Positions 19,354 to 64,000 of a stretch of DNA of 64,000 bases are shown piece after piece. The notes under the pieces are model-generated. The model was not told the DNA's origin. It saw only the letters and a program-made list of their open reading frames with translations, and made no database searches. The translations under genes were made by a program, and so were the position numbers. The stretch covers positions 165,145,787-165,209,786 of the forward strand of contig CM065805.1 in NCBI GenBank assembly GCA_033398695.1, in the 5' to 3' direction. The DNA is from Orobanche coerulescens. Taxonomy: Eukaryota; Streptophyta; Magnoliopsida; Lamiales; Orobanchaceae. Within the stretch, counting starts at the first letter, position 1. Every line of letters begins with the position of its first letter.

Positions 19354-19355
19354 AG

Positions 19356-19371
19356 TGGTATCGGAGCGGTT
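19356..19371 (+). promoter_or_regulatory. Primer-binding site of the SIRE element
   Basis: TGGTATCGGAGCGGTT lies two bases after the LTR end. It differs by one base from the common plant tRNA-iMet site TGGTATCAGAGC. The same A-to-G variant is used by elements A/B and the non-autonomous element. Confidence 0.85.
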
Positions 19372-19462
19372 GATTCTAAAAGAATCACGTATTTCTTTTT
19401 AACCGAATCAGATTCAAATCACTTATTTTCAAAACAGTTTCTTTCATTCCTATATTATCAGT

Positions 19463-21280: not shown

Positions 21281-21739
21281 AGCATGCTCCACAAGCATAT
21301 CATCAAAGCCGATCATTCGTAAAGAAGACGGTATCCAACCACCAAAGGCCCGCACAACAAGACACTCAAGACAAAGGCGCCTAGGTATTGGATACAGGAG
21401 CCCGATTATCCCTCAAGACAAAGCAGATGCCGTCAAGATCAACAACAAGATTGGGAATCCAACCGGAGACCCGTAAGACAAGTATTAGGCCTAAGAAAAT
21501 GGCTCCACCTCCTAGACGGCACTCAGATCGGAATAATAATAATAACCCTGAATTTTACATGCATAATAATTATCGTGATTATAACAACTACGGATATGCC
21601 CCGTAGATACCGCAATACTGCACCGAGTACATCCTACAAGAAACCAATTGCCGTCGGGAAAATCTGGGTACCTAAAGGAACTAACATATATGGACCCAAA
21701 AATCAAAGGGGACCTAAATCTACCTAATTTCTTTGTTAC

Positions 21740-28291: not shown

Positions 28292-28768
28292 ACAAGCTAG
28301 CACCTCAATCCCAAAGCTTTAGAATTTCGTGCTCCGGACTGTAATTCCATGACCCAAATGTCCCTTGGCAAAATCTTATCCAATGACCTTCTAAATACGT
28401 CACGACCAACCGCAACCCAACCGCCAAGAAGTGAAGCACTGGAGGAAGAATGAACTGATGAGATATTTTGTCAGACTCATCAGGGAATCCGCCATCTTCA
28501 AAAATTATAAAACGTTAGCGGAGGCAGCAGACAAGTTTTCAAAGATGCTAGAAGAAGGTAAGCTCCCTCTCCAAGTCGAGATGAAATAAAAACATAGAAG
28601 AGGAGATCGGGTCACCCATCCAGAAGATTGGATACTTGCCTTTGATCGTTCATATGAAGGAAGAGCGATTTACCAGGAACGAGGCAATGATTCACTTCAA
28701 AACTGGTGGCGTGGCACCGAGAATGAGCCAGGAAAGAGACCTTGGAGGCACGCGGATTATAGATGAGG
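28292..28768 (+). pseudogene. C-terminal remnant of the env-like gene
   Basis: After the stop at 28289-28291 a neighbouring frame continues plausibly (ELNKLAPQSQSF). Two further open blocks follow: 28457-28590 (FVRLIRESAIFKNYKTL) and 28591-28766 (THPEDWILAFDRSYEGR … WWRGTENEPG). They suggest the intact protein was about 1000 residues long. A poly(A) signal AATAAA lies at 28847. Confidence 0.5.
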
Positions 28769-28846
28769 AGATGAAATTTATGTATATTATTTTTTTGTAA
28801 TTTCTATTCAACACAGCAAACTTTGTACTCAATCATTTTGAATATC

Positions 28847-28852
28847 AATAAA
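28847..28852 (+). terminator. Poly(A) signal after the env-like gene
   Basis: AATAAA lies in AT-rich sequence about 80 bp after the last env-like codons. Together with the TATA box at 25535 it would define a self-contained transcription unit inside the element. Confidence 0.45.
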
Positions 28853-29268
28853 ATAGTTTGTTTATCTTGAAAGATTACAACTCGTAATCTACTGTGTTTA
28901 TGTATGATTACTTAAAATTGTTTGATAGGAATCTCCAGTTAGATAAACTTGATTGAAAAATAAGCTGTACGAACTAGTCTACGAACAGTTCATAGTTTCA
29001 GTTGTAAACTTAGAATACATTGTAAGATTGTGCCTGCGCGCCAATCATAAGCTTAAGTTGTAATAAATCTCAAACTGTATCGAACATGCCTGCGAGCAGT
29101 TCATTATTGTAGACTAAGTCACTAATTCAAGACCTATTGACGAAAGACCAAGAAATCTGCCAGAAGTCATCGAAGAAGAATGCTTCATGAAGAAGGTTTT
29201 GGCATCATCAAGAAGACTCGAAGAGTTGAAGTAAGTTAGTCTTGGCAAATTGTCAAAAAGGGGGAAAT
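28853..29268 (+). other. SIRE 3' non-coding region and polypurine tract
   Basis: No coding sequence is seen. The polypurine tract AAAAAGGGGGAAA at about 29255-29267 directly precedes the right LTR, as needed for plus-strand priming. Confidence 0.7.
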
Positions 29269-30444
29269 CATTGGGAAAAACAATAACCTCAGATCGAATC
29301 ACCGATACCCGATCCCTGTATCGATTGTTATTTGTTATTGAGAAGGTTTTGACATATATGCCAAATATACAGTAAGGAAACTGTATCGAGGATTCAAGGC
29401 TTTATCCTATATCGAAAATCTACCTCGAATCAGCATCAGTGAAGCTCGTCAGTACAGCAAGAAGACTTGCAAAAGATCAAGTATGGAAACTGTCTCGATG
29501 CCCTAAATACAGTCATCTTCCATACAGTTCACAAAAGGACAAGAAAGAACACAAATCAAGTCCCGTTGAACAAAGAAGTATTTAAATACTCAAGGATAAA
29601 GTATTTAAATACTGTCAGTCTTCTGATCTTCAGAATCCCGCGAAATCCGGATCATGTCATATTCCCGTTGAAGGAAATCTTATTCAAACGGACATCTCAA
29701 CGGATACTTTCTTCAGAGGCTATATATATCCTTGAAGACATTGAAGATTAGTTACAACAAGTAACCAACCAACTGAACGAACTCAAGTATCATAACTCAC
29801 AAAGCTATCAAAGTTATCATCTGAGCAAACATATCTCTAGAGCATACTGCAAGTTAGAACGAAAGAGATATACAGTGCTCAACATCAAGAACAGCTATCA
29901 TCAGCTCAAGAACGTGATATTCAAAGTCACTGTTCTTACAGTTAACTACCTTTTACCTCTGTGTAAAAACCGAGCTCTGTGTGAACTCAACAAGTTATTC
30001 TGACCTGTGTGGGACGAATAAAGACGAAGCTTTGGAACTGTGTGTGAAGAAGCTAGTCAAGAAGGAAGCTTTAACCAATCTGTGTGAACGGTTGAAAGCG
30101 ACATTCTTTGTATCAATCTGTGTGAACGATACAAGGATAGGTTTGTTTATAATTACGTAGTTGTGTATGCAGTAATTATATAATAAACTTTTTACTCCTG
30201 TGTGGAGGACCAGTGGACGTAGAGGGGTTTACCTCGAACCACTTAAAATACTGTGTTATTTACCTTCTGCTTTTACTGTTTGAAATAACTGTGATATATT
30301 AAGTATACACCTAATACGTCGTTGCTGTATCCACGGCAACTAACTGTATCCAAGACTTCCGCTACGCACTCAGATTTAGATTCCATACAGTTTGTTGTTT
30401 AAACGATTTCCCAAACTGTATCCAGTATACTTAAGTGGCCAACA
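29269..30444 (+). mobile_element. 3' LTR of the SIRE/copia element
   Basis: It is the partner of 18194-19353, starting at CATTGGG (expected TGTTGGG) and ending GGCCAACA at 30444, about 1176 bp. It is followed by the AATGC duplication. Compared with the left LTR it keeps CAG and CTG where the left copy has CG, CCG or TCG. Confidence 0.9.
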
Positions 30445-30449
30445 AATGC

Positions 30450-33805: not shown

Positions 33806-34918
33806 TAACGCAAGATTCACAAGGAAATCATTAACGCATGCTAACGTACGCTAAAGTATCAAGACAGTAAGGTCTGAAATTTTTAAGTGAAAGCAGACAA
33901 TGTATGCTAAAGACTACCTAACGCACGCTACGGAAGCAAGTCAGTAAATTTTGATATTCCTTCACAACAAGCAGTTAACACACACTAAGATATGAAACAA
34001 CGCACGCTAAATGAAAAATCTGATCGTTGCATAAGATACATATAACGCACTCTAATGGCTATTAGCGCACGTTATTTTTTAAATTCTACCGTTGGATATA
34101 CAATGGTTGGACAACCTTTTCGGACATGGAAATCATGCAAATCTGGAAAGCAAAGATTGACCATCTAGAGCACGCTATGAAGATGAATAACGTATGCTAA
34201 GTTTAATTTAGATCCATTGGACAGAAGACTTTCAGTATCAAGACCGTTTCTTTTTCAAAGTCAAAAGTAAAGGTACTCCGATAACTCACGCTAAAGCACA
34301 CAATAATGCACGCTAATGATGTCAGATGACAAGACAACAAGTCTTGCTCAAACGGTATAAATACCCACACCTTGGGTACTTCAAGACACATAAATACAAT
34401 ATGATTGATATACATTCCGAGATTTGACTATCGATATAAGCTATTTATACATTATCTAGTTTTGACAAGAAAGATACGAGTGTTGTATTTACATTGTAAT
34501 ATCACTTATACTTCATGTTATCTTTGATTGGTGTGTTCGAGTGTTGCACGACCTTGAGAGAAATGAATCAAGAACTTCAATCCGGTGTTATTAGGATCAT
34601 TGATCCGGTATTGTTAGGATCGAATTTTGAAGATCGTAAGTAAGGTTTATTTAGTTCCGATAGAATACTAGAGAGAAAATATTTATTGTTTGTTTGGTTG
34701 TGCTTCGAAGAAAAGCTGTGTGACGGTTGTGCCCGGACCTATAGAAGACGAGGAAAAGTTGAGTGTGGTTCTTCTTGATCTAATAGAAAAAGGAACGAAG
34801 AGTTGTTGAACCTCTATAAATTTCTATGTCATTTACTTTCGGTACTTTCATTTAATATCATCAAAGAAAAAATTATCTCCACTATTCAACCCTCTTTTAT
34901 TGGAACTATTCACTTTTA
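33806..34918 (+). mobile_element. LTR of a further element (C2), probably copia
   Basis: It replaces the leader and 5' LTR of element A immediately upstream of gag; the exact left edge is not clear. It contains an array of TAACGCACGCTA-like palindromes (33832-34314), a TATA box (GGTATAAATACCC, 34356) and is followed by a primer site at 34920. It lacks the TGTAATA…TGTTACA ends of the Tekay LTRs, hence the separate label. Confidence 0.6.
33832..34314 (+). repeat. Palindrome array in the C2 LTR
   Basis: Variants of TAACGCACGCTA occur mostly as pairs 20-22 bp apart: 33898/33919, 33976/33998, 34043/34063, 34166/34188 and 34282/34303, plus two overlapping copies at 33832-33853. The motif is the same as in Tekay LTRs although this LTR seems to belong to another family. 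Confidence 0.7.
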
Positions 34919-34919: not shown

Positions 34920-34994
34920 GTTGGTATCGGAGCGGGCCTGTTTTAAAACTGGTTTAACCACCAAAGGGAAAAAGATCCACAAATGGCTCGTATG
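34920..34994 (+). pseudogene. gag: C2 primer-binding site and first gag codons
   Basis: TTGGTATCGGAGCGGG follows the LTR. The first ATG (34983) gives M-A-R-M, then sequence is cut by LTR P2 at 34995. No downstream part of this element was recognised in the window. Confidence 0.6.
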
Positions 34995-37372
34995 TGTAAT
35001 ATCCTGAAATTCTATTATGACTATTTAATGTTATTTTATCCGAGTTATATTGTACAGTGTGGATAAAATAAATTGAGAACTCAGACAGTTGTATTTGTAT
35101 AATTGACGTGATTGGTTGACAGTTATAATTGAGGACATCGTGTATCAGGTTGTTTTAATTTTGATGTCGGGTATATCATGTGAGAATGTTATTGGGACGA
35201 GTATATGTATTCACTATGTCGTGTATACGTATTCGGTATGTTGAGATGACAGCCAGGAGCAGCTATTTTTGGCTAAGTTCAGAAGCCATTACGTACGTTA
35301 AGATGAAGAGCTTACGTACGTTAAGTTGGTAAGTATAACGTACGCTATGTATCATGCATTATGTACGTTAAAGCATCAGGTGAGATGCAGTCGTCTGATA
35401 AGAGGACTTTGTCTAAATACAAGCATAACGTACGTTAAGCATAAAAGCTTACGTATGTTAAGACATAGCCGTAACATACGTTATGTTGAGTATATAACAT
35501 ACGTTACGTTGAGTATATAACGTATGTTATGAAGAGAATCGGACAGGGTCCGAAGTGTCGGCAACTTTCGGCGCAGATGTGGATAGGAGAAGTCAACTCC
35601 GAGTTAACGTACGTTGTGAGTGGTACATTACGTACGTTAAATGGGTATATTTCTGTAGCAAGTCAACTCTATGTTATGTACGCTATAGCACAGGTGTTAC
35701 ATACGTAATACAAGGTACGAAATGAGGCAGTGGGTTCTGGAGTAACGTTACATATGCTACCGAAGTCGGATAACGTACGTAATGCTCGTTACGTACGTTA
35801 GGTGGATCAGGTAACGTACGTAACGACTGAAGTTTATATAAATACGAGATGTCTGTCACTTTGATATTTTGAGAGTTTCACTTCATTTCTTCATCCTTCA
35901 ACCCTCCGAGATGGAATTTTGTCTCTTCTACGTCGATTATGAGCTTGATGGCATGGATTTGGAGCTTGAGATATAAAGATATTGTTGATCCTTGAGGTGT
36001 TTGATGGTGTTGTTCGTGTTCTTGAGGTATGCTGATGAACTCTACATCTTGATTTCGGATTCTTGGTATTGTTATCCTTATTTACTTCGTATGATAATGG
36101 TTATAGTGGTGTTGTTATGATTCTTAATGCTATGTGAAGTGTATTTTGAAGATTATGATGATATATGCCTTGTATTATGAGTTAGATGATGGTTTAGATG
36201 TTAGAACACATCGGATTATGTCGTTTTGTTGATTATGAACGTGATTTCGGATTAATTCATGTTCCTGAAGAACTCTTGAGTTATATATGTCATGATCTTA
36301 TGAATAAGGGATGGAATTTGGAAAGATTATGGTTAATCTTGGAATATGATTATTCATGATAATAACCGCTAATTTGCTTTCTATGAATTTACGAATATGA
36401 ACAAGAAGGAACCTTGTTGATTCGTATTTAAAGTTGAAGTTGGAGTTGAGTATGTTAAGACACTTAGTTGAATTAATTATTGATATGATTATTGGATTGT
36501 GCAATCATATTATGGTTATGTATTCGTAATCGATAGATTTGGGTTGTTCGGATTTGTGTTTAATCGGGATATTGTGGAACTGTTGGGTTTGTTGATCGAT
36601 TATATTGATTGTTAATTATGATTATCGAGTTGCAGTTTATATTGTGGATATGAGTTCATAATTGTCGAGTTGGATTATTTGGTTTTGTATATGATCGAGA
36701 AATCGCTGAACCGTTGAGTTTGATTGGTTGGCTATGTCGGTTATTGATTGTTATCGGATTGTTGTTAATTGATTACTTCAATAGGTTGTGATAATTGATA
36801 GATGACTAGAATAATATGTTGAGTTCGAGTATGTTCGAGAATTGCTTTGGCCGAGACCTAGGAGCTTGTAGACGAAGGCAAGGAATTGGTAGCAGATTCA
36901 CTATCATCGTATCGGTATCGAGGCAAGTTATTACTTGTTCAGTTTATAATACTTAATAAATGGTTTCAGTTTCATGTCGGTTATAATGCATATATCAATG
37001 ATTATCACTGCGATTTCTGAAGATTTGGATTGTATGTAGTTTTCCGATTTTTGGGAGTTAAATCATAATGTATATGATTTCCATTCGTTATTGGTATATT
37101 TGGGTATCGAGGATATATTGTTTTAAGCGTGAGGATATGAGTTATCTACAGTCCGTGGTACTTCCGGATCGTCGAATATTGAGCAAATTGTTAGTGATGG
37201 TTTTGACATCAAGATCGCTCTCGAAGGACTCGAGGCAAGTACTCTAATCATTTTTTTTCATTTAGTGTCGATCATGTTGTGATGCATTCGTATATTGTTG
37301 TTGACGTGCATTTGTGTAATGTTGTTTTATGCAGTTGTACATTGTAGTTGTTCGTCTACCATGCGTTGGTCC
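34995..37372 (+). mobile_element. LTR 'P2', left part
   Basis: Starts TGTAATATCC inside the C2 gag. It contains a palindrome array (35289-35823), TATA (35835), donor-like GAG/GTATG (36027) and two CGAGGCAAGT motifs (about 36919 and 37231). It is cut at 37373 by the non-autonomous element and continues at 45384. Confidence 0.8.
35289..35823 (+). repeat. Palindrome array of P2 (TAACGTACGTTA type)
   Basis: Starts include 35289, 35312, 35336, 35359, then 35426, 35449, 35472, 35495, 35518, later 35771, 35789 and 35812. The block 35426-35518 is exactly 23 bp per step. The TATA (TATATAAATA) starts at 35835, 23 bp after the last copy. Confidence 0.9.
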
Positions 37373-40174
37373 TGTAACACCCCCAAATCACTCGGGAATA
37401 TTACAGCGCCGCAGACCCTCTCCATGAGGATCTAGCAGGCTAAATACAGAAAACACCACAATACAATACATGCCGACATGTCTAAATAACGAATCATTAG
37501 ACTGATTTGGTCTTTTACCGCAACATACACATCAACCATACATTACTCTTCCTCACAACTCATACCCACGCAGGTGTTAGAATACATCAATATTTCCATA
37601 AAATAGAAAATCCCACAACGGGAAGACAAAACAACAAGACTTCACCAAATACTCAATACCGGTCTTCATGTGATTAGTATCGTTGTCTTCCATCATCCTT
37701 CGTAACGATCCTGTGAATTGATCCCCAGCAACCTGCAAGTACCTGGACGCAATACAGACATCCACCCCCCGAATACTCGTGGGTTAGCAAAACTCCACTG
37801 TTTTGCTAGTGCAAGTATAAAACACCAATACAAGCCATACACAACATACTTCAAGAACATATTAATCGTGAATATACGTCCCTAGATAATTCACTTGATC
37901 AAAACAGTTTGAAATATGAAAGGTAGGAATAAAACCATTATACATCTTACAAGACATTTTATGATCTCGGGAGTTTTGAAAACATTTAGGATTTAAGAAT
38001 TCTCAAGTCTTTCGAAACCACTTAGGGACGCAGCCCAAAAATCATTTTACAAAATACAATTCTGATAACAACACGGGTCCATGACCTAACCATAACATTC
38101 TAATCACAAATACGGGGTCCAAGACCCAAATCATCCACATCACATACTCGAAAGAATAACCCAACAGAAACTACACAGTGTCAAACATTACCATGACAAT
38201 AGTCTCACAGAACAACATCAGAGGGCACAAACTTGCAACTTAACCATACGGTCGAACTCGACACACCACAAAGCTACAATGCACAGAGCAACCACAGGAC
38301 TCGCGAACCCATACCAAATTATCGCAACGAAGAGACGAATCATACACAACACATTTTCTGGTGCCATTCCAGCTAAGTATAATACCATTTGAACTGCCAT
38401 TCTAATTAGATGAAATATGCACCAAAATCATAGTTCTCCAACAAAACATTTCAATGATAACCATTGGTACAAGACTCATGGCCACCGTACCCCACAGAGG
38501 CCCCGTCGGACCATCCCTGAGTGGTTAACCCTAGTTCACGATACGCACACAAATGGCAATACGTATCCCTAGAGGCCCCGTCGGACCATCCCTGGGTGAA
38601 CATACATATATACATCCACAACATCCACGGGAAGCCATAATCCAAATATTAGAATATGCAAACAAATGCAAATTACTTGCTAGAATGGCCACTTTATTCG
38701 ACATATACTTTATTCACAACTAATATCACATAACAACAAGCAAATACCAATACCAAACGACACTAAGTGCCACAACCTCTTTACAAAGGAGTAACAACTA
38801 ATATCGCACAACGTCACATATTCATAGAACAAGTACATGTGTCAATACACAATCCTCGGCAAATGATTACGGTCTACTATATTCAAGTAATACAATCACA
38901 ACACCTTCCAACATACGGCATTAACTACATATTCCGAAACACATTCATTCACGAAGCATCCGAGTTATCTTTGAAGGAAAATCTTTTATTGAGGATATAC
39001 CGATCCTTTTTGAAAGTTCATTAAAACGTTAAAATTTCACATATAATCAATTACGAACTATTACGTCTACGAAACACGAAATGTATGGGCAAGATACTTG
39101 CCTCGATACTGCGAACAACGGAACGACGAACAGGCACGGTCGGGTCACCCTCGGACTTCCAAGAATGACCGAGAACTCGAAAACTCCGCGAAACTATAAA
39201 AATAACATCACCACGAATCAATAACGCTAATCGGAATTCGAATCAACCTGAAAAACAATAAGGATCCGAGGGTTTCTTCAAGACAAATCGAGAATCAAGT
39301 TTCGGGTGATAAAAATTGATAAATGAGTCACAAAATACGAAGACCATGATCAATACAACAAGAATACCAAAATTAATTCATTAATCTCGGACAAAACCAA
39401 CGAATCACGAATAAACCCCCAAAAATCGTACAACTAGGGGTCTAGGGAAGAAAATACCTTGATTCGACGAAGAACAAGGATTCGACGATGATATAATCGA
39501 AAAGGATCTTCCAAAACATCTTGGAAATGAGTAGAATCGGCCAAGAACCCGGGTCCCCGAGCCTCCCGTCGCCAGCCGCCACAAGAGATGAGAAAAAGGG
39601 TAAAAATGAGGTCTGGCCGAAGCCCAAGCCTATATATGCCGACAGCGTTACGGCCGTAACTGGCAGTGCCTTACGGCTATAACTCGATCAACTCCATTTA
39701 CGTACGTAACAGCTGCTGCCTTATGTACGTAACGAGCACGCCTTACGGCCGTACTCGACGCAGCCTTACGGCCGTAACCGGGTCCCCAGGGCTACTGCCC
39801 GAAATCTGCCGACCCATTACAACCGTAACTGGCCAATGCCTAGCAGCCGTAACGAAGCCTTACGACCGTAACAGGATGACCCGTATGGCCGTAACCGAGT
39901 CCTCACAGGCCAGGTTGTGCGGGTGTCTTACGGCCGTAATCGGCCCGGCCTTACGATCGTAACTCGACCCAGCAGCCCTTCGACTGCCCAGCTAGAGACT
40001 CGACGATGTCTCGATCACGCAAACGCACCGACCATGATCCAAAACAATAACGAACAAGCTATGAAATTCAACGAATAACAGTGCAAGCACACAATTCCAA
40101 GGACGCAGACGACAACAGTCCGTTCGACCAAAGAAAAATTCAACGAAACCAGAACGAAGATCTCGGGTATTACA
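37373..40174 (-). mobile_element. LTR 'M2': 3' LTR of the non-autonomous element
   Basis: On plus from TGTAACACCCCC to CTCGGGTATTACA, 2802 bp; near-identical to 42672-45383. On minus: array 39962-39648, TATA at 39636, donor-like CAAG/GTATT (39455), CGAGGCAAGT (about 39100) and a 75-bp duplication of GAGGCCCCGTCGGACCATCC (38497 and 38572). Short open frames shared with M3 drift and carry no known domain. Confidence 0.9.
39648..39962 (-). repeat. Palindrome array of M2 (TTACGGCCGTAA type)
   Basis: Starts at 39648, 39671, 39698, 39721, 39743, 39766, 39817, 39841, 39860, 39883, 39928 and 39951. Most steps are 22-24 bp. The core is GGCC, with a few TTACGTACGTAA copies in the same register. Minus TATA start (39636) lies 23 bp from the minus start of the nearest copy (39659). 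Confidence 0.9.
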
Positions 40175-42671
40175 TTCTACCTCCCTTAAAAGAAGTTTCA
40201 TCCCCGAAACTTAAAACATATAATGAACAACACAAAACAAACTCAGATAACGCACGCTATCCATTGCCGACGACTTGCAACGAATCACATGCAACACGTA
40301 GCTGCTACCATCCATATCGCTACACCAGAACCACAACAAAACATAACGAATAAAAATCAATATGGTTAACCAACCCGAATAGCAAAACAATCAAAACACG
40401 AGTTAATCGTTGAACAAATACGAAATTCCGACGACACAAGGTTTAGAAGGTCGAATATGAAGTTAATTTCCCGAAATTACAGAAATTACGAAGTGATCTG
40501 AACCCTCAAAAATCATGATACAAGATCAACAAATACCGGACAACAAATGATCGAGACGACAATGGTTGAACAATCATATCGGAATCATAACGAATAATAA
40601 AAATCGAATAGCATCCCCGTAGTTCACAGCTCGACTCAAGATAATATATGATCTGGTGAAAATGATAAGATATGCATTTACATAAGATTCACATGAGTGG
40701 AACCAAATTCGGAAAAAGTCACGACGACAAACGGATTAACCCGAAACAATACCGCAACTCGTTCGAACAACAAAAAGTGAAGAGTAGAACAAGTCCAGAA
40801 AATATCAATGAATACAAATGAGTTGATAGAGTCGAACAAAACGGAAGTGAAAAAAAATATGGGTATTACACCATACCACCATTAAAAGAGTTTTCGTCCC
40901 CGAAACCAAATCAACAAGAACGGAGTGCTAGAATAGCAACCTTCCCGGCAATATTCTCTTGGTCCCACATCTGATCTCCATGACCATCTGTACCGCGGTC
41001 ACGACCGCGTCCTCTGCCCTTCTGCATACTAAGCGAATACTCACTCAATACGATGGCACAACATATCGACATAAGGTATCTAATAGCAACACGATAAGTG
41101 TGCCCATTCTGGATAATTACACGAATACAAAATTTACAAATGCGATACTCGGAACTTGCTATCATAGCCAACCATTTAAATAATCACCTCAACAAAAGTC
41201 TTATCACTCATACCAGTTCAAACACGGCCGTAATAACTATACACCAATGTAATTAACCATTTATAACGTTCTCCTCAAATCCCCACGAGGTATCCATTTA
41301 GATGATATCATTTGAAAACCTTTGGAATTCGTATATATATTTTGAAGAAAAAAAATTGTGTTGGTTTTTGAAATAAAAATTTTATGGTGTGAAATATTTT
41401 TGAAAATCATGTAATTGGATTTTTTGAAAATACAACAGTACGTTAAAAATCATTTTCGAAAATTCTCCCAGCACTACACAAAAATCAACGACGTAACATT
41501 TTATGAAATGTTCAAGGTACTTTAAAACAACTCTTTCAATACCGTCGGGGTTCCATTAGAAAATTCAAGGCCGCTCGCCAATTTCAAATGATTTTCAAAA
41601 TCCACACGAGGCCGCCGAGTACTCGCACCGTCAAAACATTTTTAAAAATTGATTTTCCACAACTTGCTCAAGTTTATGAAATTTTCAGGAAAGCGTTTTT
41701 CGAACACACCCACAACAGACATAATTTATCACTTCATCAAACAAAATTCTTTACCATCAAATCCAATCACATGTCAACACCATCTGCCCACATAATTACA
41801 GTATCACACAAGCAACCGTCAAAAGATAATTAACATCTAAAACAGAAATCCTACCTCTCAGTACCTCACAACAAGTGCATCCAGAATGACTTAACGTTCA
41901 TACCACCAACTTAATCACAATTTGAGCATTATTGCCCAAAAAATAATGCAAACATCACTACATACCTCCGAACCAACGATCGTGGAATCAAAAGTTGAAA
42001 GCGAGAGTCACGTTTCAAGTAAATTCTTGATAGACCTCCTTTGAGTTTTAAAAATCAATTTTTGAAAATTGCAATGCAAAATGAGAATAAAATATAAGTA
42101 GTTTGAGTTCTCCAAAAATTTTCGGTCTCGAGGTCATCATACGAAAATCAAACTCTTTCCCTTCTTGAAGGGGGTTTTAAAATAAAATTTACGTGACTTC
42201 CCAAAACAGTTAAAGTTTTTTAAAATATTACGTTGATAAACCTTCATTGAGTAACCACACCAAAACATCACTCCTGTAAAAAATGGTTTATACAAAGATA
42301 TATACATATACATACATACATACATACATACATACACACTGGCACCGCTCTTCATCCCAGCACAACACGAGAATCAACAAGCATGGATTACGTATTCACA
42401 ATTCATGTTTAAACTCTGTATGATAACACAAAATCACACAAGGTCGTATAACACGAGACACAACAAAGTAGGGAGACTTACATCCACAGATCGCAAGAAG
42501 ATGATGGCTGCACCTCGATAATAATCAAGATCGACATCTCAGATGACGCGTCGCGACACGACTCGGTCAGAAAAAACCCGACAAGACAAGACAAGACAAG
42601 ACAAGGCCCGACAACACACAACTCGACCCGACAGACTAGGTTTCCGCAATCTAAGCTCCGATACCATATTA
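40175..42671 (-). other. Internal region of the non-autonomous element
   Basis: Plus TACCTCCCTTAAAAGAAGTTTC at the left is the polypurine tract of a minus element (read in reverse). At 40861-40905 a second LTR-end/polypurine signature appears (GGGTATTACA … TTAAAAGAGTTTTCG), implying another element's edge inside. Just beyond, a minus frame begins M-Q-K-G-R-G-R-G-R-D-R-G (41029), like a Tekay gag start, but no further gag or pol is found. The rest is AT-rich, with TACA repeats at 42303-42340 and GACAA repeats at 42577-42606. Confidence 0.7.
42655..42666 (-). promoter_or_regulatory. Primer-binding site of the non-autonomous element
   Basis: Minus reads TGGTATCGGAGC, five bases from the LTR start at 42672. 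This shows that the element keeps the priming signals although it lacks proteins. Confidence 0.85.
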
Positions 42672-45383
42672 TGTAACACCCCCAAATCACTCGGGAATAT
42701 TACAGCGCCGCAGACCCTCTCCGTGAGGATCTACAGGCTAAATACAGAAAACACCACAATACAATACATGCCGTCATGGCTAAATAACGAACCATTAGAC
42801 CGATTTGGTCTTTTACCGCAACATACACATCAACCATACATTACTCTTCCTCACAACTCCTATCCACGCATGTGTTAGAATACATCAACGTTTCCATAAA
42901 ATGGAAAATACCACAATGGGAAGACAAAACAACAAGACTTCACCAAATACTCAACACCGGTTTTCATGTGATTAGTATCGTCGTCTTCCATCATCCTTCG
43001 TAACGATCTCGTGAATTGCTCCCCAGTAACCTGCAAGTACCTGGACGCAATACAGACATCCACCCCCCGAATACTCGGGGATTAGCAAAAATCCACTGTT
43101 TTGCTAGTGCAAGTATAAAACACAAATACAAGCCATACACAACATACTTCAAGAACATATTAATCGTGAATATACGTCCCGAGATAATTCACTTGATCAA
43201 AACAATTTTAAATATGAAAGGTAGGAATAAAACCATTATACATCTTACAAGACACTTTACGATCTCGGGAGTTTTGAAAACATTTGGCATTTAGGAATTC
43301 TCAAGTCTTTCGAAACCACTTAGGGACACAGCCCAAAAATCATTTTACAAAATACAATTCCGATAATAAATCACAGGTCCACGACCCAACCATAACATTC
43401 CAATCACAAATACGGGGTCCACGACCCAAATCATCCACATCACATACTCGAAAGAATAACCCAACGGAAACTGCACAGTGTCAAATATTACCATGACAAC
43501 AGTCTCATAGAACAACATCAGAGGGCACAAATTTGCAACTTAACCATATGGTCGAACTCGACACACCACAAAGCTACAATGTACAGAGCAACCACAGGAC
43601 TCACGAACCCATACTGAATTATCGCAACCAAGAGACGAATCATAAACAACACATTTTCTGGTGCCATTCCAGCCAAGTACAATATCATTTGAACTGTCAT
43701 TCTAATCAGATGAAATATGCGCCAAAATCATAGTTCTCCAACAAACCATTTCAATGTTAACCGTTGGTATGAGCCTCACGGCCACCGTACCCCGCAGAGG
43801 CCCCGTCGGACCATCCCTAGGTGGTTAACTCTAGTTCGCGATACGCACACACACGGTAATACGTATCCCTAGAGGCCCCGTCGGACCATCCCTGGGTGAA
43901 CATACATATATACATCCACAACATCCACGGGAAGCCATAATCCAAATATTAGAATATGCAAACAAATGCAAATTACTTGCTAGAATGGCCACTTTATTCG
44001 ACATATACTTTATTCACAACTAATATCACATAACAACAAGCAAATACCAATACCAAACGACACTAAGTGCCACAACCTCTTTACAAAGGAGTAACAACTA
44101 ATATCGCACAACGTCACATATTCATCGAACAAGTACATGTGTCAATACACAATCCTCGGCAAATGATTACGGTCTACTATATTCAAGTAATACAATCACA
44201 ACACCTTCCAACATACGGCATTAACTACATATTCCGAAACACATTCATTCACGAAGCATCCGAGTTATCTTTGAAGTAAAATCTTTTATTGAAGATATAC
44301 CGATCCTTTTTGAAAGTTCATTAAAACGTTAAAATTTCACATATAATCAATTACGAACTATCACGTCTACGAAACACGAAATGTATGGGTAAGATACTTG
44401 CCTCGATACTATGAGCAACGGAACAATGAACGGACACGGTCGGGTCACACTCGAACTTCCAAGAATGACCAAGAACTCGACAACTCTGCGAAACTACAAA
44501 AATAACATCACCACGAATCAATAACGCTAACCAGAATCCGAATCTACTCGAAAAACAACAAGGATCCGAGGATTTCTTCAAGACAAATCGATAATCAAGT
44601 TCCAGGTGATAAAAATCAATAAATGAGTCATAAAATCCGAAGAACATGACCAATACAACAAGAATACCAAGAACAATTCATTAATCTTGGACAAAAATCA
44701 ACAAATCACGAAGAAACCCCCAAAAATTGTACAACTAGGGTTCTAGGGAAGAAAATACCTTGATTCGACGAAGAACAAGGATTCGGCGATGATATAATCG
44801 AAAAGGATCTTCCAAGACATCTTGGAAATGAGTAGAATCGCCCAAGAACCCGAGTCCCTGAGCCTCCCGTCGCCAGCCGCCACAAGAGATGAGAAAAAGG
44901 GTAAAAATGAGGTCCGACCGAAGCCCAGGCCTATATATACCGACAGCGTTACGGCCGTAGCCGGCAGTGCCTTACGGCCGTAACTCGATCAACACCCTTT
45001 ACGTATGTAACGGCTGCTGCCTTACGTAAGTAACGAGTACGCCTTACGGCCGTACTCGACGTAGCCTTACGGCCATAACCGGGTCCCCAGGGCTACTGCT
45101 CGAAATCTGCCGACGCATTACGGCCGTAACCGCCCAATGCTTAGTGGACGTAATGAATCCTTGCGGCCGTAACTCGACCCAATAGCCCTTCAACTGCCCA
45201 GCTAGAGACTCGACGACGTCTCGATCACAGAAATGAACCGACTTGATCCAAAACAATAACGAATAGGCTACGAAATTCAACGAATCACAGTGCAAGCACA
45301 CGATTCCAAGGACGCGGACGACAACAGTCCATTCGACCGAAGAAAAAATCAACAAAACCAGAACGAATATCTCGGGTATTATA
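42672..45383 (-). mobile_element. LTR 'M3': 5' LTR of the non-autonomous element
   Basis: Partner of M2, 2712 bp. It ends TATTATA (expected TATTACA) at 45383. Flanks of the whole element are GGTCC (37368-37372) and TGTCC (45384-45388), a near-perfect 5-bp target duplication within LTR P2. The 90-bp length difference from M2 is explained by a contraction inside the palindrome array. Confidence 0.9.
44949..45172 (-). repeat. Palindrome array of M3 (TTACGGCCGTAA type)
   Basis: Starts at 44949, 44972, 44999, 45022, 45044, 45067, 45118, 45141 and 45161, the same pattern as M2 up to its eighth copy. The stretch matching 39860-39951 of M2 (91 bp, about four steps) is missing here. Minus TATA starts near 44937, 23 bp from the nearest copy. 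Confidence 0.9.
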
Positions 45384-48200: not shown

Positions 48201-50131
48201 CTGATTTGTAAAACCTTTTCGAAAACCTTAGGGTTCTAACCCAAATCTTGATTCGTATTTCGGCAATTTACAATACGAAAACATTTTCATAAATCTCGTG
48301 GGGCTCGGCCCAACTATAATACCCTTACTTTTTATTGACTGTTTGACCTTACCGTTCTTCCTGTTTTGTCGCTCTGTAAACTCTTTGTGATGGTGTCGGC
48401 GTTGATCTAGAGTTTCATGCCTTGTTTGGATCATGATCGTGCCGTTTAGACCTTTCGGAAGTGTTTTGGGTCAGGGAGGTAGCGCACGCTAGGCCTATGC
48501 TAACGCACGCTAATTCTGCGTGAGTAGCGCACGCTAGTTTTGAGCCTTAGCGTGTGCTAACGGATTGGGTCGGCAGAGGCAGTGAGGTTTCAGACTTTCT
48601 GGACTAGCAGGTATCGCACGCTAAGCAGCGGCTAGCGCACGTTATATGTGTTGCATAGCGCGCGCTAGTGCACAGTGTTAACGCACGCTATCACGCTACC
48701 AGTTAGCGCACGCTAAGGATGTTGAGTAGCGCGCGCTAACGTTTGCGGACAGTAGCCACTGGACTACCGGGTGACCCGTTAGCGCACGCTAATATTTAGG
48801 CGTAGCGTGCGCTAGACTGGGCGAGTATATATTGGACAGTTGACTTCCATTTCATCATTTTTCATCCTCTCACTCAATTTCCGACCAAGAGCAGTAGATG
48901 CGATTCGGGGAGTTGGGAAGCGATCTTTCTTCGGATAACAACATCTTTGGTTGGAGAACAAAGATTTCACAGCATCTAATCCTTTCCATCTTCCAAAGCA
49001 AGGTAAAAATCCTTAGAACCCTATTTTTGGGAATTTCTTAGATTCGTTCAATTTATACAGTTTGAGGCTTGATAATCTTGAGATTATGATGTATCTATCC
49101 CGTACGCATGCTTTTCCTACGATTTTACGGATTGGATTGTGCCGTTTTCGGACTTGTGAGGATTTGGACGATTTTCCAACCTCTAGTTGTTTATCTGTGT
49201 ATTTTCATGAATCGTAGACGGGTTTCGGGAGTTTCTTCATGTAATTTGAGTATGGATAATTGATTATCATATTCCTTGCGAATCGTTTAGGTGTCGTAAG
49301 CGCGTTCTTGGACCTACCGAACTCATACCCTTTTGTCCGTTAAATTTCTCGATGTCTTAAAGGCAAGTATATATTTATGATTGTACGTTCTCGACTTTGA
49401 AAGTAAGATATATTAATGGTATGATTATTTATATCCACTCTGGGGCGGGTCGACGTGTCCCCTGAGGGTTTTGTAGCCTCTTGGTGCGATTCCACGGATA
49501 TATAAATGAACCACTCTGGGATGGATCAACGAGTCCTCTGAGTGTTCCGTAGCCTCTGGTGTGGTTCCACGGTATTCATATATGTATTGATGTGATGCTA
49601 TAAGATTTAGTTATTCCAGAATACTAGTCTTGAATTGATGAATTGACGGTTACCTTTACCTTATTTTCGAGGAGTATTGTGTTTCATACTTGATATACTT
49701 GCACTAGCCATTCGACGGCTAACCCCTTTATGGAGGAAATACTTTTTATGTATTTCAGGTTCCAGGAGAGCGGACAGAAAGGTATCGGGTCGGCATGAAG
49801 ATGATGGGCAAGTGTGATACTGTGTCTTTCCTCCGGTTATGTTCTGAGTTTTTCCATTCAGTGCTGTTATACTGGAATGGTTATTGAATATTCGAGTATT
49901 GTTTTCCATTTTCCTTGATGTTCCGGCTTGTGTTTTCCGAGGTATTGATTTTGTGTTGTGATGTCTTTGGATACATTGGTTATGTTTGAGTGCCCTTTGT
50001 ATTGTTCTTCATTCCATTGTATGTAGACCTTCTCGGTCAAAATTTATAGCTCCGCGTATGTTTAGCCTTGTGGGTCCCACGGTGGGGCTTACGGCGCTGT
50101 AATATTCCCTGAATAACTTGTGTGTGTTACA
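48200..50131 (+). mobile_element. LTR 'P3', 5' LTR lacking its left end
   Basis: The left edge is lost or hidden near 48200. Landmarks: palindrome array (48480-48814), TATA (TATATATT, 48826), donor-like CAAG/GTAAA (49003), AGGCAAGTA (49361), a duplicated CCACTCTGGG unit (49436/49510), acceptor-like TTTCAG (49758) and the end GTGTGTTACA at 50131. A primer site follows. Confidence 0.8.
48480..48814 (+). repeat. Palindrome array of P3 (TAGCGCACGCTA type)
   Basis: Starts at 48480, 48501, 48525, 48548, 48612, 48633, 48656, 48679, 48704, 48727, 48780 and 48803. The TATA starts at 48826, exactly one further 23-bp step. Gaps of 53-64 bp separate groups; one holds CAGTAGCCACTGGACTA. Confidence 0.9.
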
Positions 50132-50136: not shown

Positions 50137-50148
50137 TGGTATCAGAGC
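50137..50148 (+). promoter_or_regulatory. Primer-binding site after P3
   Basis: TGGTATCAGAGC, a perfect match to the common plant tRNA-iMet primer site, five bases after the LTR end. Other elements here have TGGTATCGGAGC. Confidence 0.9.
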
Positions 50149-51000: not shown

Positions 51001-51530
51001 TAGCGCACGCTACAAGGTACGCCTAGCGCGCGCTAAGATATATACTTAGCGTACGCTATGATACATACTTAGCGCACGCTAAGAGGTTTGAGTTACGTAC
51101 GCTAAGGAGGACCCCTAATGTACGTAAGGTATTCTGGATAAGGTCCGGAAGGTGGCCGACAGGTAGGCCCAGACTGTCTATTATCGGCGATTAGAGCACG
51201 CTAATGCATGTTGGTAGCGCACGCTAATGCATGTTGATAGTGCACGCTAATTTTAGATCGTCAATAGGGAATCTTGGCTTTATTGGTTGCTTTCGGCGTT
51301 GAGGACCCGAGCATCTTCTGGGTAGGTACGGATTGTCGGGTCAACGACGATTAGCGTGCGCTAAAGTCGAGGAATAGCGCACGCTACTGAGCATTTCACT
51401 GTAGCAAGTCAACACCGGTTTGCGTACGCTAATACCTGGGCATTACGTGTGTTAGATGATGTGCGAAGGAATACAGTAGCCCCTGGACTGCCCGATAACG
51501 CACGCTATCGAGGAAGGATAGCGCACGCTA
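51001..51530 (+). repeat. Palindrome array of P4, the most regular in the window
   Basis: Starts at 51001, 51024, 51047, 51070, 51093, 51116 (five exact 23-bp steps), then 51192, 51215, 51238 (exact), 51352/51375, 51420/51443 and 51496/51519 (each 23). TATAAAA starts at 51542, 23 bp after the last copy. Copies are TAGCGCACGCTA, TAGCGCGCGCTA, TAGCGTACGCTA and close variants; the 11-bp spacers are unrelated. Confidence 0.95.
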
Positions 51531-52899
51531 GTAATGTGTTTTATAAAAGGGACAGATGGGTGCTGAGAGACATTTTGTCCATTCTCCTTCCTTCAGTTAA
51601 TAGAGAGAGCTTTGGGAGGTATTTGAGGTTCCCAAACACTCTGAGATGATGGTCTTTAACAAGATTAAGATGGAGAACATGGATTAAAGCCTTGTTCTTG
51701 AAGTTATTCATGATTCTTGGAATGGAGTTCAATGGTTCTTCTTCTTGATTTGTCTATTCAAGGTAACTCTCGTATCCCTTTGATAGTGGTTCGTTTTAAA
51801 GGATGATTCTTGGTATTCCACGTGAAGTTTGTTGAAGAAGATAATGACATGATGACTTATATGTTAGGTTATGTTATATTGTCATGAACATGGTCAGGGA
51901 ATCATGTTGTCCTTGGCAATATTGTTGCGATTCTTGATATTATGATGATATATACCTTAGATTGTGAGTTATATGTAGGCTTAGATGTTGGAACATCGAA
52001 TTATGTCGTTTGGTCGATTATGGACGTGATTGCGGATTAATCCACATGCTTGAGGGACTCCTGAATTATACGAGATGATGAATATTTGTAAGAAGTGTTG
52101 GTGCTTTGAATATGAATATGGAATATTCATATAGTGCTAAATTATGTATTTTGAAATGATATTCATATAGGAATACGAATATAATTACGAGTTTGCTGAG
52201 GCTATTATTCATCCCTGAATTTGGAAGCCCGTACGTATGGAACAAAGGTTTAAGTCGAATGATTGGATTGTTTGATAACCTTTTAATATGATTATCTATT
52301 ATATTGAACTAATTGGATGGTTTGAACTGATGATCATAGGTAAATTTTAACAATGGATTTACGAGAAGGAACCTTGTTAATTCACATTTAAGAATCGAGT
52401 TTGAAATCGATGACATTTAGACCCTTATTACTGGTTCGAATTGGTTACTGATATGATCATCGGATTTCGGCTCGTATTGTGGACGTGGATTCGTGAGGGT
52501 CTGAGTTGGATGGTTCAGACGGTGTTTAATCGAGAAATTGTGGAACCGATGAGTTTTTGGCCTGGTTGTATTGATATTGATCGTCATCGAACTTGTTGAT
52601 TATTAATCCTTCTTTTCACAATGAGTTGTGATGTTTGATCGTGGATTATGACTGTTGTGTTGCATTTGAGATTGAAGAGTTCATAGATTACTTTGGTCGG
52701 GACTGAGGAACTCGTAAACGAAAGCTACTGAATTGGTAACAATTCGTGGCATTGATATCGAGGCAAGTTTTATACTTGTACTAGTTAACGAGATTGATGT
52801 TATCATGTATGTGTTTGAATGTGTGTATCATTTCTAGACTTGGTCTCTTTATGATTTTTTTGATATCAGGGGATTGTTTGATACGATATCCTTCGGCAA

Positions 52900-53345: not shown

Positions 53346-54680
53346 CAAGGCAGCACACTATCATTCTTGTGAACTCGGTAATTTTGTGATCGTTGAGGGT
53401 TGAGGATTTCCAGATTGTTGTTCGTGTTAATCGGTCCTTAAGGATTGTGGTCCCATGATGGTTGTGTTGGATATTGTTGGTCGTGTCGATCTTTCATTAT
53501 TCATGTATCATCGTTCACTTTGGTGAGTCGTATGATCCGTATTGGAGATGTTATCCTTTGAGTTTCGTTGTCATGTTGCATCGTGACATATCTGGAATCA
53601 TATCTGCGTGCCGATTAGTTATGTGTAGGATTTTAGCCAGGCACACGATGGTCATGCGTGGATGTTTCCGCATTGGACCGTGCACACGGGACGTAGTTCG
53701 TGAGGCTAATTAGGTACATTGTCCCATGTATGTTCTGGATTCCATATACGGGGTGGACATGTGCAGGGACACATTTTCGAATCGGGCATACTGTGATTTC
53801 CCTCTTGAGCCTTATTATTGTGGTCGTTCATAGTCCATGTTGTATTGGATATGTTTGACTGTTTACGACTGGTTGGTCATACGCCCGATGTAACACCCCC
53901 AAATCCCATTGGGTTATTACAGTGTCGTGGACCCCACACCCGGAGATCCACCCGGCGAACATGACTAAAATACATTAAAATTAAACAAGGGAAAATCATA
54001 GTCCCTACCATGATATCCGACACAATATTCCGATAAGGAATTTCAACGACAACGATGGGCCTACATGGCCAAAAATAAAATACAACAACATCCACGAGCA
54101 TCTGCTCGGGTAATACATAATGACAATGACTGACAGACTGAAGAACACTCCAACTGACTGACCAACATGAACAACTCGGACTAGTATCGCTCGAATGCCT
54201 CGTCGCCATCATCATGCCCCTGTGTCTCAACTCTCTCCTCGCAAGCACCTAAAACATGAAAACATGTTCCGCCCCCACGGGGTCAGTCATCCAGATAATG
54301 AATATCAAATACATGTATAACATGATATGCATCCAAAGGTAAAATGAAACGGTACAATGATGATAATAATACGAGATGCTCACAAACCAATGTAAGAACC
54401 GAGCATTCGTGAAACACTATGCCCACGGCATACTATTAGTACCTATTCGACAGGTTAGAACGTAAATGCCCAACGACGAATCATAATTATAGAGTACCAC
54501 AATGCATTACACGACATGAACCAAACCAGAATTTAATTAATTATGAATCACAATGCCCGAAGGCTCCAATGAAATTACCAAGACAATCACAAAGACCTGA
54601 AAGTCTCTCACCCGAAGCTGTCAATGAACATAAACACTGAAACCGGAATAGCCCGAAGCTGTAGTTAATGAGGGCTAATA

Positions 54681-55012
54681 AGATCATAACCACGACCGTG
54701 ACCTACTAAGATGTAGGTGTTGGGAAGCCAACCGCGAAGGTTCAAGCCCCAAGCTTACCCATAAGATCATAAACACGACCGTGACCTACTGAGTTGTAGG
54801 TGTTGGGAAGCCAACCGCGAAGGTTCAAGCCCCAAACTTACCCATAAGATCATAAACACGACCGTGACCAACTGAGTTGTAGGTGGTGGGAAGCCAACCG
54901 CGAAGGTTCAAGCCCCAAGCTTACCCATAAGATCATAAACACGACCATGACCTACTGAGTTGTAGGTGTTGGGAAGCCAACCGCGAAGGTTCAAGCCCCA
55001 AACTTACCCATA
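54681..55012 (-). repeat. 83-bp tandem repeat, four copies
   Basis: AGATCATAA starts at 54681, 54764, 54847 and 54930, exactly 83 bp apart. Copies differ at only a few bases (for example AAGCTTACC/AAACTTACC), so the expansion is recent. The unit contains GGGAAGCCAACCGCGAAGG. Confidence 0.95.
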
Positions 55013-55149
55013 AGCACTAGCCGAGGCTAGCCTCCAAAATATAATTAATCACAAACGACAACGATTCGTAGATTACCGAATTCACGAGAATGATAGTGTG
55101 CTACCTTGAATCGGCCAACACGATAATGATGACTCACGGATGGGCATCG

Positions 55150-55395: not shown

Positions 55396-57780
55396 TGTAA
55401 CACCCCAAACTAGGCAGATATTACAGTGCCGTGGACCCCCGACTGGGACCCACCAGGCGAATGAAAACTGATGAATTAAATAATATAATTGTAGTACCGA
55501 ACCACATTATATTACCAAATACTCCGATGAGGAGCTTAAGTACAATACACCAGGACAATACAGAATACTAGTATATTTTATATGAAGATAAAATACACCA
55601 CCCTGAATAAATAAACATCTCAAACGGAATTTGCAGCGGAAATACAAATAATGGAAATGACTGAAATGACTGAAATGACTGAAATAACCGGAATGACTGG
55701 GGCCCCCTACTAGTATCACTGGGACTCATCGCCGTCAACATGCTCTTACCGTGCCTTTGACTTGCCGTGACTTGAAAACAAAATCCCCGAACGGGGTCAG
55801 TTACACAGAACAACAATCCTCAAGGGTTGAAAATACACAATCATGATAAATCTGAAGTTATGAAATATCCTTAGTTATGAATTACGCTGAAGAGGAGTAT
55901 CATAGTACGCCCGTAGTGTTCTGTGCAAGTGTACAAGACAGATGACCGGACACACCGGTCCTTGTACCTAATTAGTCTCACGGAGCTAATCTTTACCGTG
56001 TGCACAGTCCAATGTATCACTCCCAATACATGGCCATCGCGTGCCCGACTAAAAATTCCATACATCCGCACCCGGCCACGCAATATGAACCCAGACGGTC
56101 ATATGAACGAGAATGACCACAATGAATATCAATGGATAATAATTCGACAAGGTCAAGAATGACTCACCGAGATGAAAATAATAGTGAAGTGATTGATAGC
56201 TCAATGAAATGATTGGAACCGTCGTTCCTCGTGAATGAAATGATTATTCGACAATTACAAGTCTCAATACGGTTAATTAAATGATGAATGAGTTATGATT
56301 ATGAATTAACAACAACAAAAGGAATGAATATCCTTTTAACCGAGTAAGAATTAACTTACACAACATCGGTGACAATTATCCTTCCACGAACAACGTCCTA
56401 ATTGAGATATCGGTCGCTCGAACAACCTTAAATAACACAATCACCAACAATACGTTCAACATACGAATCAAACAAGAATATAACGAACTCAAAACGTCGA
56501 TACGACTAAACTAAGTTCATTGGGGCATTATATCGAACACTTTGTGGCCAACTTCGATTGATTACAACCAAACCTCAATAATACCAACATCAAATCCCCA
56601 AGAAGTGTTTCAAACCAACAAAACATCTTCAATACGATCAATAATCCAATATGAATATTCAAATTCGTGATTACAACAACGATTAATCGAAAACCCCCAA
56701 ATCCAACTCAATATTCAAAGTGTTCTTGAATAATCCTTCAATAATCCAATGAATAATCAAACATATCCATAATCATGCGTATATCACTTCATACAACATG
56801 ATCTTAACATCCAAAACATCATATCTCAACACAAAATTGAAATCCAAGAGGTTGGATGAATATTACCTTTGAAGATCCAAGCACTTTGATCCGAAGAACA
56901 CGCGTTAGATCGACTATCCGGGCTTCACGATCGAAAGGAAATGAAGAAAATCAAACCCTCAAGTGATGGATGATGAAAAGTTTCTCCCCTCAAGCCTTCT
57001 CTCTCGGACCAAGGTGAAGAAGTGAAGAAAAAATGAGTTGAATTGCACAAAAATCGCAATTATAGTGCTGACTGCACTGTGTGCGGCGGCCGGCCGAAGT
57101 GTGCCGCGGCACAGGGTCAAATCTGCCCCCAGTGATCGGCAGCGTGCCGCGGCCCGAACGAGTGTGCCACGGCAGAGACTCGGCAGTGTGCCGCGGCTCA
57201 CGGTACAGAGGGGTTGGTCGATAAGTTGCAACACGAGTGTGCCGCGGCAGTGACTTGGCAAAGGCTGCCGCCCCGCCAAAGATGTGTCGCGGCCCACTGA
57301 CAGCCGCCGCCAAAAACTGGAAAATGTGTGTGCCGCGGCGCACACTCCTTGTGCCGCGGCCCACACCCCCCTTGGGTCCTAAAATGATGAAAAATGATCC
57401 GGGAAGGGAATAAAAGCAATAGGAATGAATATTTGGGAAACAATAACACGAAATGGAAGTGCAGAAACCCCAAAACGGTGGTTCCAAGCAATGATTACAA
57501 GGGTTCGTCCAACAAAAACACGATTTGAACAATGAAGAGATTTGAAATGACATGAATTCCAATGTCATCGACTAATGAATCAATTACAACCATCAAGATA
57601 ATACTCTTGTCTTGATTCCCGAATAAGGTAGATACACTGAACAATATCGATACATAACTCGAAGTTATTCCGAACGGTGAACACGGATGAATGATTATTA
57701 TCAAGTGAAAAAATTACATAGTGACAATTACCGAATGAAATTACTGAATGATAATGACTGAATTACAACCGGGTATTACA
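55396..57780 (-). mobile_element. 3' LTR of Tekay element B
   Basis: On plus from TGTAACACCCC to CCGGGTATTACA, 2385 bp. It matches 62917-63598. On minus: array 57362-57101, TATA-like TATAAT at 57064, donor-like AAAG/GTAAT (56865) and acceptor position with TTTTCAA/GTCACGG (55770), where the AG of the consensus has become AA. A polypurine tract follows at 57787-57799. Confidence 0.9.
57101..57362 (-). repeat. Palindrome array of element B (GTGCCGCGGCAC type)
   Basis: GTGCCGCGGCAC variants start at 57101, 57144, 57164, 57188, 57239, 57284, 57330 and 57351. Steps are 20-24 bp or about twice that (43-51). The CCGCGG core is unlike the other arrays, yet the register is similar. Confidence 0.8.
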
Positions 57781-63598: not shown

Positions 63599-64000
63599 TG
63601 TAATACCCGGATTTTCAGTATAAACTTTTCGCATTATTTTATCTGAGATATACTGTATAGTTTGGTATCTATACAGTATGGATAAAATAAATTGAGAACC
63701 GAGACAGTTATACTGGTGTTATTATCCTTTTTTGGATTGACAGATATATTCAGGATATGTTGTATGAAGTTGAACTGATTCGGATATCAGGTATACCGTA
63801 TGAGAATATTTTTGGATTCAGTATGTGTATTCAGTATGCCGTATGTTTGTATTTCGTACGTCGAGACGTCGGACAGGAACAGTTGGATTTTTGGCTAAGT
63901 ATAAAAGCTATTACGTACGTTAAGCCTTGGAGCTTACGTACGTAAAATGTGTTAGCTTACGTACGTTATATAGTGTACATAACGTACGTAACAAGAGGAA
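63599..64000 (+). mobile_element. LTR 'P5', left part
   Basis: Starts TGTAATACCCGG and strongly resembles the first part of P4. The palindrome array begins at 63911 and the window ends inside it. Confidence 0.85.
63911..63991 (+). repeat. Palindrome array of P5, exact 23-bp steps
   Basis: TTACGTACGTTA, TTACGTACGTAA, TTACGTACGTTA and TAACGTACGTAA start at 63911, 63934, 63957 and 63980, three exact 23-bp steps. The array probably continues past the window. Confidence 0.95.

Follow-up and report, generated by a model that had tools for sequence, protein, structure and literature searches.

A 64,000-nucleotide stretch of the genome of Orobanche coerulescens (contig CM065805.1, positions 165,145,787–165,209,786; hereafter the window) contains short CpG-bearing near-palindromes that follow one another at 23 bp steps, in several cases ahead of a TATA box. 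We may ask what holds this step constant, and what such rows of sites do. The first-pass annotation had described them as 12 bp CpG palindromes contacted by a dimeric or oligomeric DNA-binding factor that helps to position the promoter. All of the coordinates that it gave for the P4 array are exact, including that of TATAAAA at 51542, and the within-group steps of this array are indeed 23 bp. The arrays of the window, in which TWRCGNNCGYWA is the main class of site, and the elements that go with them are as follows.

51001–51530, forward strand: P4 array, 15 quasi-palindromic sites in groups of 6, 3, 2, 2 and 2 at 23 bp steps
51542–51548, forward strand: TATA box of P4, 23 bp past the start of the last site
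48480–48814, forward strand: array of 12 sites (at most one mismatch), steps mostly 21–25 bp with 23 bp the commonest, TATA box at +23
50137–50148: PBS-like match going with the array at 48480–48814
35289–35823, forward strand: array of the TTACGTACGTTA type, TATA box at +23 (35835)
16018–16562, reverse strand: array of 17 sites (at most one mismatch) within the LTR at 14299–16777
14299–16777, reverse strand: LTR adjoining a gypsy pol ORF that matches a chromodomain weakly
39648–39962, reverse strand: array of the TTACGGCCGTAA class in the LTR at 37373–40174 (reverse strand), commonest step 23 bp, TATA box at +23
44949–45172, reverse strand: TTACGGCCGTAA-class array in the matching LTR (low-coordinate end 42672), with a PBS-like match at 42655–42666 (reverse strand)
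10277–10633, forward strand: array downstream of a gypsy pol ORF (9542–10075, forward strand), without TATAWA and with TAATAAATA at +23
11379–11702, no strand assigned: array with 23 bp steps; 79% matches between two blocks that lie 134 bp apart; no adjacent TATAWA found
33832–34315, forward strand: element B array, degenerate, with short steps of 20–22 bp and a TATA box at +52; PBS-like match at 34922–34933, copia-like leader
63911–63991, forward strand: start of an array, four sites at 23 bp steps, in an LTR that begins at 63599; runs off the end of the window
57101–57362, reverse strand: one-way array of the GTGCCGCGGCAC type with short steps of 20, 21 and 24 bp, in the LTR at 55396–57780 (reverse strand)

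Element B had been credited with the same layout as P4; an array is present there, but its short steps are not of 23 bp and its leader sets it beside copia elements. Elsewhere in the window, a copia element (18196–30448) whose LTRs measure about 1.2 kb and are 93% identical is nested inside the gypsy element, and its 693-residue ORF (25626–27707) is without a Pfam match, as is a 519-residue open frame at 2389–3948 on the reverse strand. An 83 bp unit is repeated in tandem at 54678–55014 (about four copies, 95% matches). Only about 2.5 kb (40174–42655) separates the LTRs of the TTACGGCCGTAA element, which may be non-autonomous or deleted.

The pattern is far denser than chance and extends well beyond this locus. 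The window holds 68 exact TWRCGNNCGYWA sites, compared with a mean of 0.9 and a maximum of 3 in 20 first-order Markov shuffles; with at most one mismatch per site, 52 pairs stand 23 bp apart, compared with none in 20 of 20 shuffles, and 23 bp is the dominant site spacing. We then took a motif-blind sample of 190 kb (19 loci of 10 kb, one per chromosome-sized contig, at 20 Mb). It contains 156 exact sites, spread over 11 of the 19 loci, compared with 1, 9, 1 and 1 sites for four permuted control motifs, and one pair at 23 bp occurs among the nine sites of one of these controls. The distances between sites in the sample are 23 bp (57 cases), 24 bp (17), 22 bp (4), 21 bp (4) and 18 bp (2), with no pair at 5–17 or 25–40 bp among the 156 exact sites. 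Genome-wide, the sub-motif TAGCGYRCGCTA gives 268,679 pairs at 23 bp versus 16,228 at 22 bp. Extrapolated to 3.65 Gb, the sample gives on the order of 3 million sites, a value that is only approximate since one place was sampled per chromosome. The autocorrelation of site positions suggested in the first-pass annotation thus returns its 23 bp peak in the window, in the sample and in the genome counts, which confirms that the array pattern is real and not confined to one locus. No viral contig in IMG/VR has three exact sites in a row.

We tabulated 27 array clusters, 23 of which entered a grouping by similarity after masking of the sites (those at 63911 in the window, L013 8868, L017 9695 and L027 5827 were omitted). 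The masked arrays fall into 15 sets without mutual similarity (blastn, E = 1e-3). The commonest step is 23 bp in 13 of these 15 unrelated sets, is tied between 23 and 24 bp in L011 and is 22 bp in element B. The spacing is constant to about one base among LTRs whose site-masked sequences do not align.

Which elements carry the arrays? The gypsy pol ORFs adjoining the LTRs at 14299–16777 and 55396–57780 match SH3_Tf2-1 and, weakly, a chromodomain: the Chromo matches in the two ORFs (E = 0.0023 and 0.0012) are below the Pfam cut-off score and lie at the expected place after SH3_Tf2-1. Several close relatives of the gypsy integrase carry a precomputed Chromo domain, and the distinguishing feature of chromoviruses, a chromodomain at the C-terminal end of the integrase, is present. 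The best named protein relatives of this integrase are from flowering plants (best 120 of 8000 scored candidates). In the locus L016, on the other hand, an array (7631–8026) is followed by a primer-binding site (8597) and by an ORF (8631–9767) with a Retrotran_gag_2 match (E = 3.1e-34). A copia-type gag directly after the array LTR and the primer-binding site places the L016 family in Ty1/copia; element B is copia-like by leader alignment only, the leader after its primer site resembling that of the L016 family. Among the copies of the copia family that we fetched (12 best of 40 scored, from 3574 candidates), 11 of 12 contain an array, the terminal steps are 23, 18 and 23 bp in 8 of 12 and the TATA box lies 53 bp past the last site in 10 of 12. 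The same type of site therefore serves both gypsy elements, with arrays beside their pol ORFs, and copia elements, with an array ahead of the L016 gag. The 23–18–23 signature in the TATA-proximal group is also seen in several unrelated arrays (L028–L039, L014, L015, L016 and 10277–10633 in the window).

In L013, a gypsy element has both of its LTRs partly present (1184 bp aligned, 97.6% identical). Its ORFs of at least 100 residues encode gag, reverse transcriptase, RNase H and integrase, four further frames match no family and there is one match at chance level. No frame of at least 100 residues was found wholly between the primer-binding site (6382) and gag (up to 5629), and one frame of 163 residues straddles the LTR end. 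Since the ORFs match gag–pol families only and no frame lies in that interval, a factor binding the arrays is probably not encoded by L013-like elements. In L011, a BED zinc-finger ORF (7395–8147, forward strand) lies beside the array and was considered as an element-encoded binder; we set it aside because its translation, by inspection, looks like a fragment of a neighbouring transposase, which we take to be hAT-like.

A constant step could also be left behind passively if a unit of 23 bp had been duplicated in tandem, and such copies do exist. Within P4, the blocks at 51024–51084 (84% matches) and 51192–51251 (91%) are tandem repeats, as is a further block at 35472–35531. The spacers, which the first-pass annotation had called unrelated, are so on average but not within these two short blocks of P4. 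Their identity is 0.32 between consecutive units, 0.30 between other units of the same array and 0.27 between arrays, for an expectation of 0.25 from composition, and only 3 of 32 consecutive spacers match at nine or more of their 11 positions. Moreover, no step outnumbers that of 23 bp in 14 of the 15 unrelated sets, and the sites are kept while the spacers diverge. Among seven related LTRs, identity is 0.75–0.99 in sites and 0.57–0.94 in spacers, with sites above spacers in 21 of 21 pairs, and CpG retention is likewise higher in sites than elsewhere in 21 of 21 (these pairs are not independent). Between P4 and its related copy L003, 170 of 180 site positions (94%) are identical, compared with 235 of 326 in spacers (72%) and 258 of 315 in flanks. 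The comparison of spacers, the conservation of sites and the recurrence in unrelated sets rule out tandem duplication as the general cause, although a few blocks are duplicated, and we find it scarcely credible that the arrays are its relic. The annotation had named two observations as fatal to its own reading, the absence of a 23 bp peak and spacers aligning as tandem copies; neither was found, bar these few local duplications.

These comparisons indicate that selection keeps the sites of the arrays more than it keeps the spacers. For the copia family, conservation is only weakly suggested: against L028, identities in sites and spacers are 0.65 and 0.53 for L030 (0.89 in the remainder), 0.94 and 0.92 for L031, and 0.55 and 0.60 for L032, the comparison covering these three copies, the last of which retains one site.

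The sites have a direction. In the 19 arrays with an assigned strand, out of the 27 clusters, the central dinucleotide on the LTR sense strand (toward the TATA box) is CA in 130 sites and TG in 8. CA exceeds TG in 13 of the 13 arrays having such centres, which span six unrelated sets, and neighbouring sites form 47 CA–CA pairs versus 8 CA/TG pairs. The strand of the array at 10277 was taken from its pol ORF; all of its centres are TA, which leaves the CA:TG count unaffected. Mutation bias is disfavoured as the cause of the CA centre, since CA and TG are balanced outside the sites (409:418) and losses of the outer CpGs lean towards TG (33, versus 20 to CA). Genome-wide, TAGCG–centre–CGCTA pairs at 23 bp point the same way in 131,744 cases (66,333 + 65,411) and are opposed in 12,450, with more convergent (9675) than divergent (2775) pairs among the latter. 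Given the one-way centres and this same-direction excess, the 12 bp CpG palindromes of the first-pass annotation are there, but most of them are quasi-palindromes with a direction. Among the first 100 places listed where TATAWA stands 23 bp after TAGCGYRCGCTA, the last site ahead of the TATA box is the flipped one in some copies.

The position of the TATA box is less uniform than had been proposed. The rule that it follows the last palindrome by 23 bp holds in P4 and in one group of LTRs, but not in another. For the 10 unrelated array sets with TATAWA within 60 bp, the distance is 23–24 bp in five, 26 bp in one and 50–53 bp in four. Within the 23–24 bp group, the array at 16018 reads 47 bp, its last site being broken, and that at 44949 reads 21 bp at the first TATA. 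The 50–53 bp group is made up of element B, L011, L015 and the L016 copia family; downstream of the array, element B has sequence in common with L011 and L015. All of the arrays of the 23–26 bp group that can be assigned to a pol ORF are gypsy. As the distances fall into two groups, a fixed contact with TFIID is not general. Genome-wide, TATAWA occurs exactly 23 bp after TAGCGYRCGCTA at 39,586 places, a raw count at a single offset. A longer palindrome, CCAGT-N4-ACTGG, lies between groups of sites: of its 16 occurrences (at most one mismatch), 15 lie no more than 120 bp from a site, a neighbourhood that makes up 9.1% of the sampled DNA and in which four control palindromes have no occurrence, although this motif was chosen from these same arrays and related copies were counted repeatedly. 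It recurs in the array at 16018–16562 (reverse strand) and in other arrays. In one array family, successive groups are separated by 54, 64 and 74 bp, distances that differ by about one helix turn.

The class of site is not fixed either. The LTR at 55396–57780 is related to the array LTR at 14299–16777 (73% identity between 55396–56734 and 14299–15652, with ends alike), yet bears a different repeated CpG palindrome, GTGCCGCGGCAC. Of the 15 GTGCCGCGGCAC steps of at most 24 bp counted over the window and the sampled loci, 10 measure 21 bp. This class is also one-way: only the 3′ half is intact in 25 sites and only the 5′ half in none, with both halves intact in 10 and neither in 1. Beyond the window, GTGCCGCGGCAC-class arrays occur at L016 1415–1572, L020 171–443, L025 8849–9026 and L027 1492–1638; for the class-iv arrays (CCGCGGCAC pattern), the strands in L016 and L020 were set by inspection. 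A third form, TTACGGCCGTAA, is that of the LTR at 37373–40174, with a commonest step of 23 bp and the TATA box at 23 bp. The palindrome class, as judged from these LTRs, can thus switch along with its step between related LTRs.

Taken together, the arrays are probably U3 enhancers bound head-to-tail by a host DNA-binding factor, and three other explanations have to be weighed against this one. They could instead be landing sites for an anti-silencing protein from another transposon, the binding of which would remove methylation rather than enhance transcription in the ordinary way. The logic would be that of the VANC targets of VANDAL transposons, short motifs built up by repetition in noncoding regions and changing in type between related elements (PMC5735166). 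Some sunflower Tekay chromoviruses, which exist with or without a 5′ additional ORF, have such a frame upstream of gag with a predicted nuclear product (PMC11728184; see also PMC12844716). Like the elements here, whose array-adjacent gypsy ORFs have an integrase of the same general build, they are gypsy elements with a chromodomain; the available part of that text does not mention LTR site arrays or palindromes (PMC11728184), and L013 has no frame of at least 100 residues in the corresponding place. VANDALs, moreover, are DNA transposons with their own VANC gene, and their motifs spread by tandem repeat formation, whereas the elements here are LTR retrotransposons with mostly unrelated spacers; neither palindromes nor spacing are mentioned in the accessible portion of the VANC report (PMC5735166). 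In a general family search, the ORFs of L013 match gag–pol families only. As the direction of the sites and their proximity to the TATA box also fit promoter function, we consider an anti-silencing target unlikely.

A role at the RNA level, in which neighbouring sites would pair in the 3′ LTR transcript and the hairpins feed silencing, a model put forward for the palindromes of maize Sireviruses, appears more doubtful still. LTR palindromes of maize Sireviruses are described as hotspots of small RNAs in the parts of the two reports available to us (PMC5311732, PMC10760457), and in 18 of 19 strand-assigned arrays the RNA folds with greater stability than its shuffled versions. This stability is expected of any palindrome-rich RNA, however, and the shuffles preserved base composition only. 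A step exact to one base is not required for hairpins, and the common CA centre of neighbours (47 CA–CA versus 8 CA/TG pairs) mispairs in the stem, which disfavours pairing between them despite the 18 stable folds. Finally, there may be no specific factor at all, if CpG-dense blocks were selected as a methylation or nucleosome signal. CpGs are present in every intact site, and their loss from near-sites resembles deamination, with TG or CA the outcome of 53 of 58 changes at the outer CpGs. But a fixed 12 bp sequence, a direction and a spacing held nearly to a single base exceed mere CpG density, and three control motifs that keep the CpGs with permuted neighbours give 1, 9 and 1 sites in the sample versus 156. 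We regard a signal of this kind as very improbable.

The closest described likeness is with Sirevirus LTRs, in which palindromic repeated motifs lie upstream of the TATA box and have been proposed to play a regulatory role (Bousios et al., 2010; PMC2829016). In both cases, the part of the LTR ahead of the TATA box holds a cluster of many CpG-bearing palindromes, which differ between related elements. The Sirevirus motifs have a CGG–CCG core in all but one case and are described as absent from classic elements and specific to Sireviruses, and no fixed step or direction was found in the part of the text available (PMC2829016). The main class here has a CA or TA centre instead of this core, although the TTACGGCCGTAA arrays do contain CGGCCG; and Sireviruses are Ty1/copia elements, whereas the pol-linked array LTRs of the window carry SH3_Tf2-1 and the weak chromodomain. 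As far as that text goes, the arrays differ by their TWRCG..CGYWA site, their 23 bp step, their single direction and their presence in Ty3/gypsy as well as in a copia family. They may work like Sirevirus repeats, yet they lack two of the defining features. Our searches of open-access text found no report of a fixed-step array, and none of the matches listed for the motif strings in open-access papers concerns plant retrotransposons by title. The U3 repeat enhancers of retroviruses and of Tnt1/Tto1 also present repeated factor sites upstream of the TATA box, with few and longer repeats. Plasmid iterons, the replication-initiator sites at origins, are alike in layout only, and the promoter context argues against such a function here.

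How would such an enhancer work? Each 12 bp quasi-palindrome, TWRCG-CA/TA-CGYWA on the sense strand, would accommodate a single DNA-binding unit with sequence specificity, in the simplest case a dimer, that always binds in the same direction. Adjacent bound units would touch, setting the step at 23 bp with 22 and 24 bp tolerated, and the row of units would recruit or support the transcription machinery at the downstream TATA box of these plant LTR retrotransposons. The DNA helix has 10.5 bp per turn; a step of 23 bp would be 2.2 turns and would leave neighbours rotated by about 70° along the helix. Most likely the gene for this factor belongs to the host or lies elsewhere in the genome, as L013 has only gag–pol families and the copia family uses the same sites. 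With two or three CpGs per site, methylation could block binding and silence old copies, and the decay of the outer CpGs in near-sites is as expected if silenced copies are methylated.

The dimeric or oligomeric factor of the first-pass annotation is thus the best fit to the data (sites above spacers in all 21 pairs among the seven related LTRs and in P4, spacing held) and finds partial support. Its further suggestion, that the array helps to position the promoter, may hold for some LTRs; the TATA box aligned to that of P4 is non-canonical in the related copy L003, and the TATA distance falls into two groups. One-way sites, Ty1/copia arrays, the switching of class together with step and the two groups of TATA distance go beyond that reading. 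More tentatively, it is quite possible that a single diffusible factor, reading both direction and spacing, drives two unrelated superfamilies through the same head-to-tail array at sites on the order of millions, and that families escape it or find another partner by exchanging the entire site class along with its step (from 23 to 21 bp) in an LTR that is otherwise still recognizable.

To our knowledge, what activates plant retrotransposons has been established in only a few families. If the above is true, the one-way array that gypsy and copia elements have in common would offer a direct handle on this question: the site could be used as bait for the factor, and the effect of methylation could be tested. 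The change of site class from one LTR to a related one could reveal an arms race over transcriptional control. A plant genome would then contain one factor's sites in numbers on the order of millions, and the cell would have to mask or titrate them.
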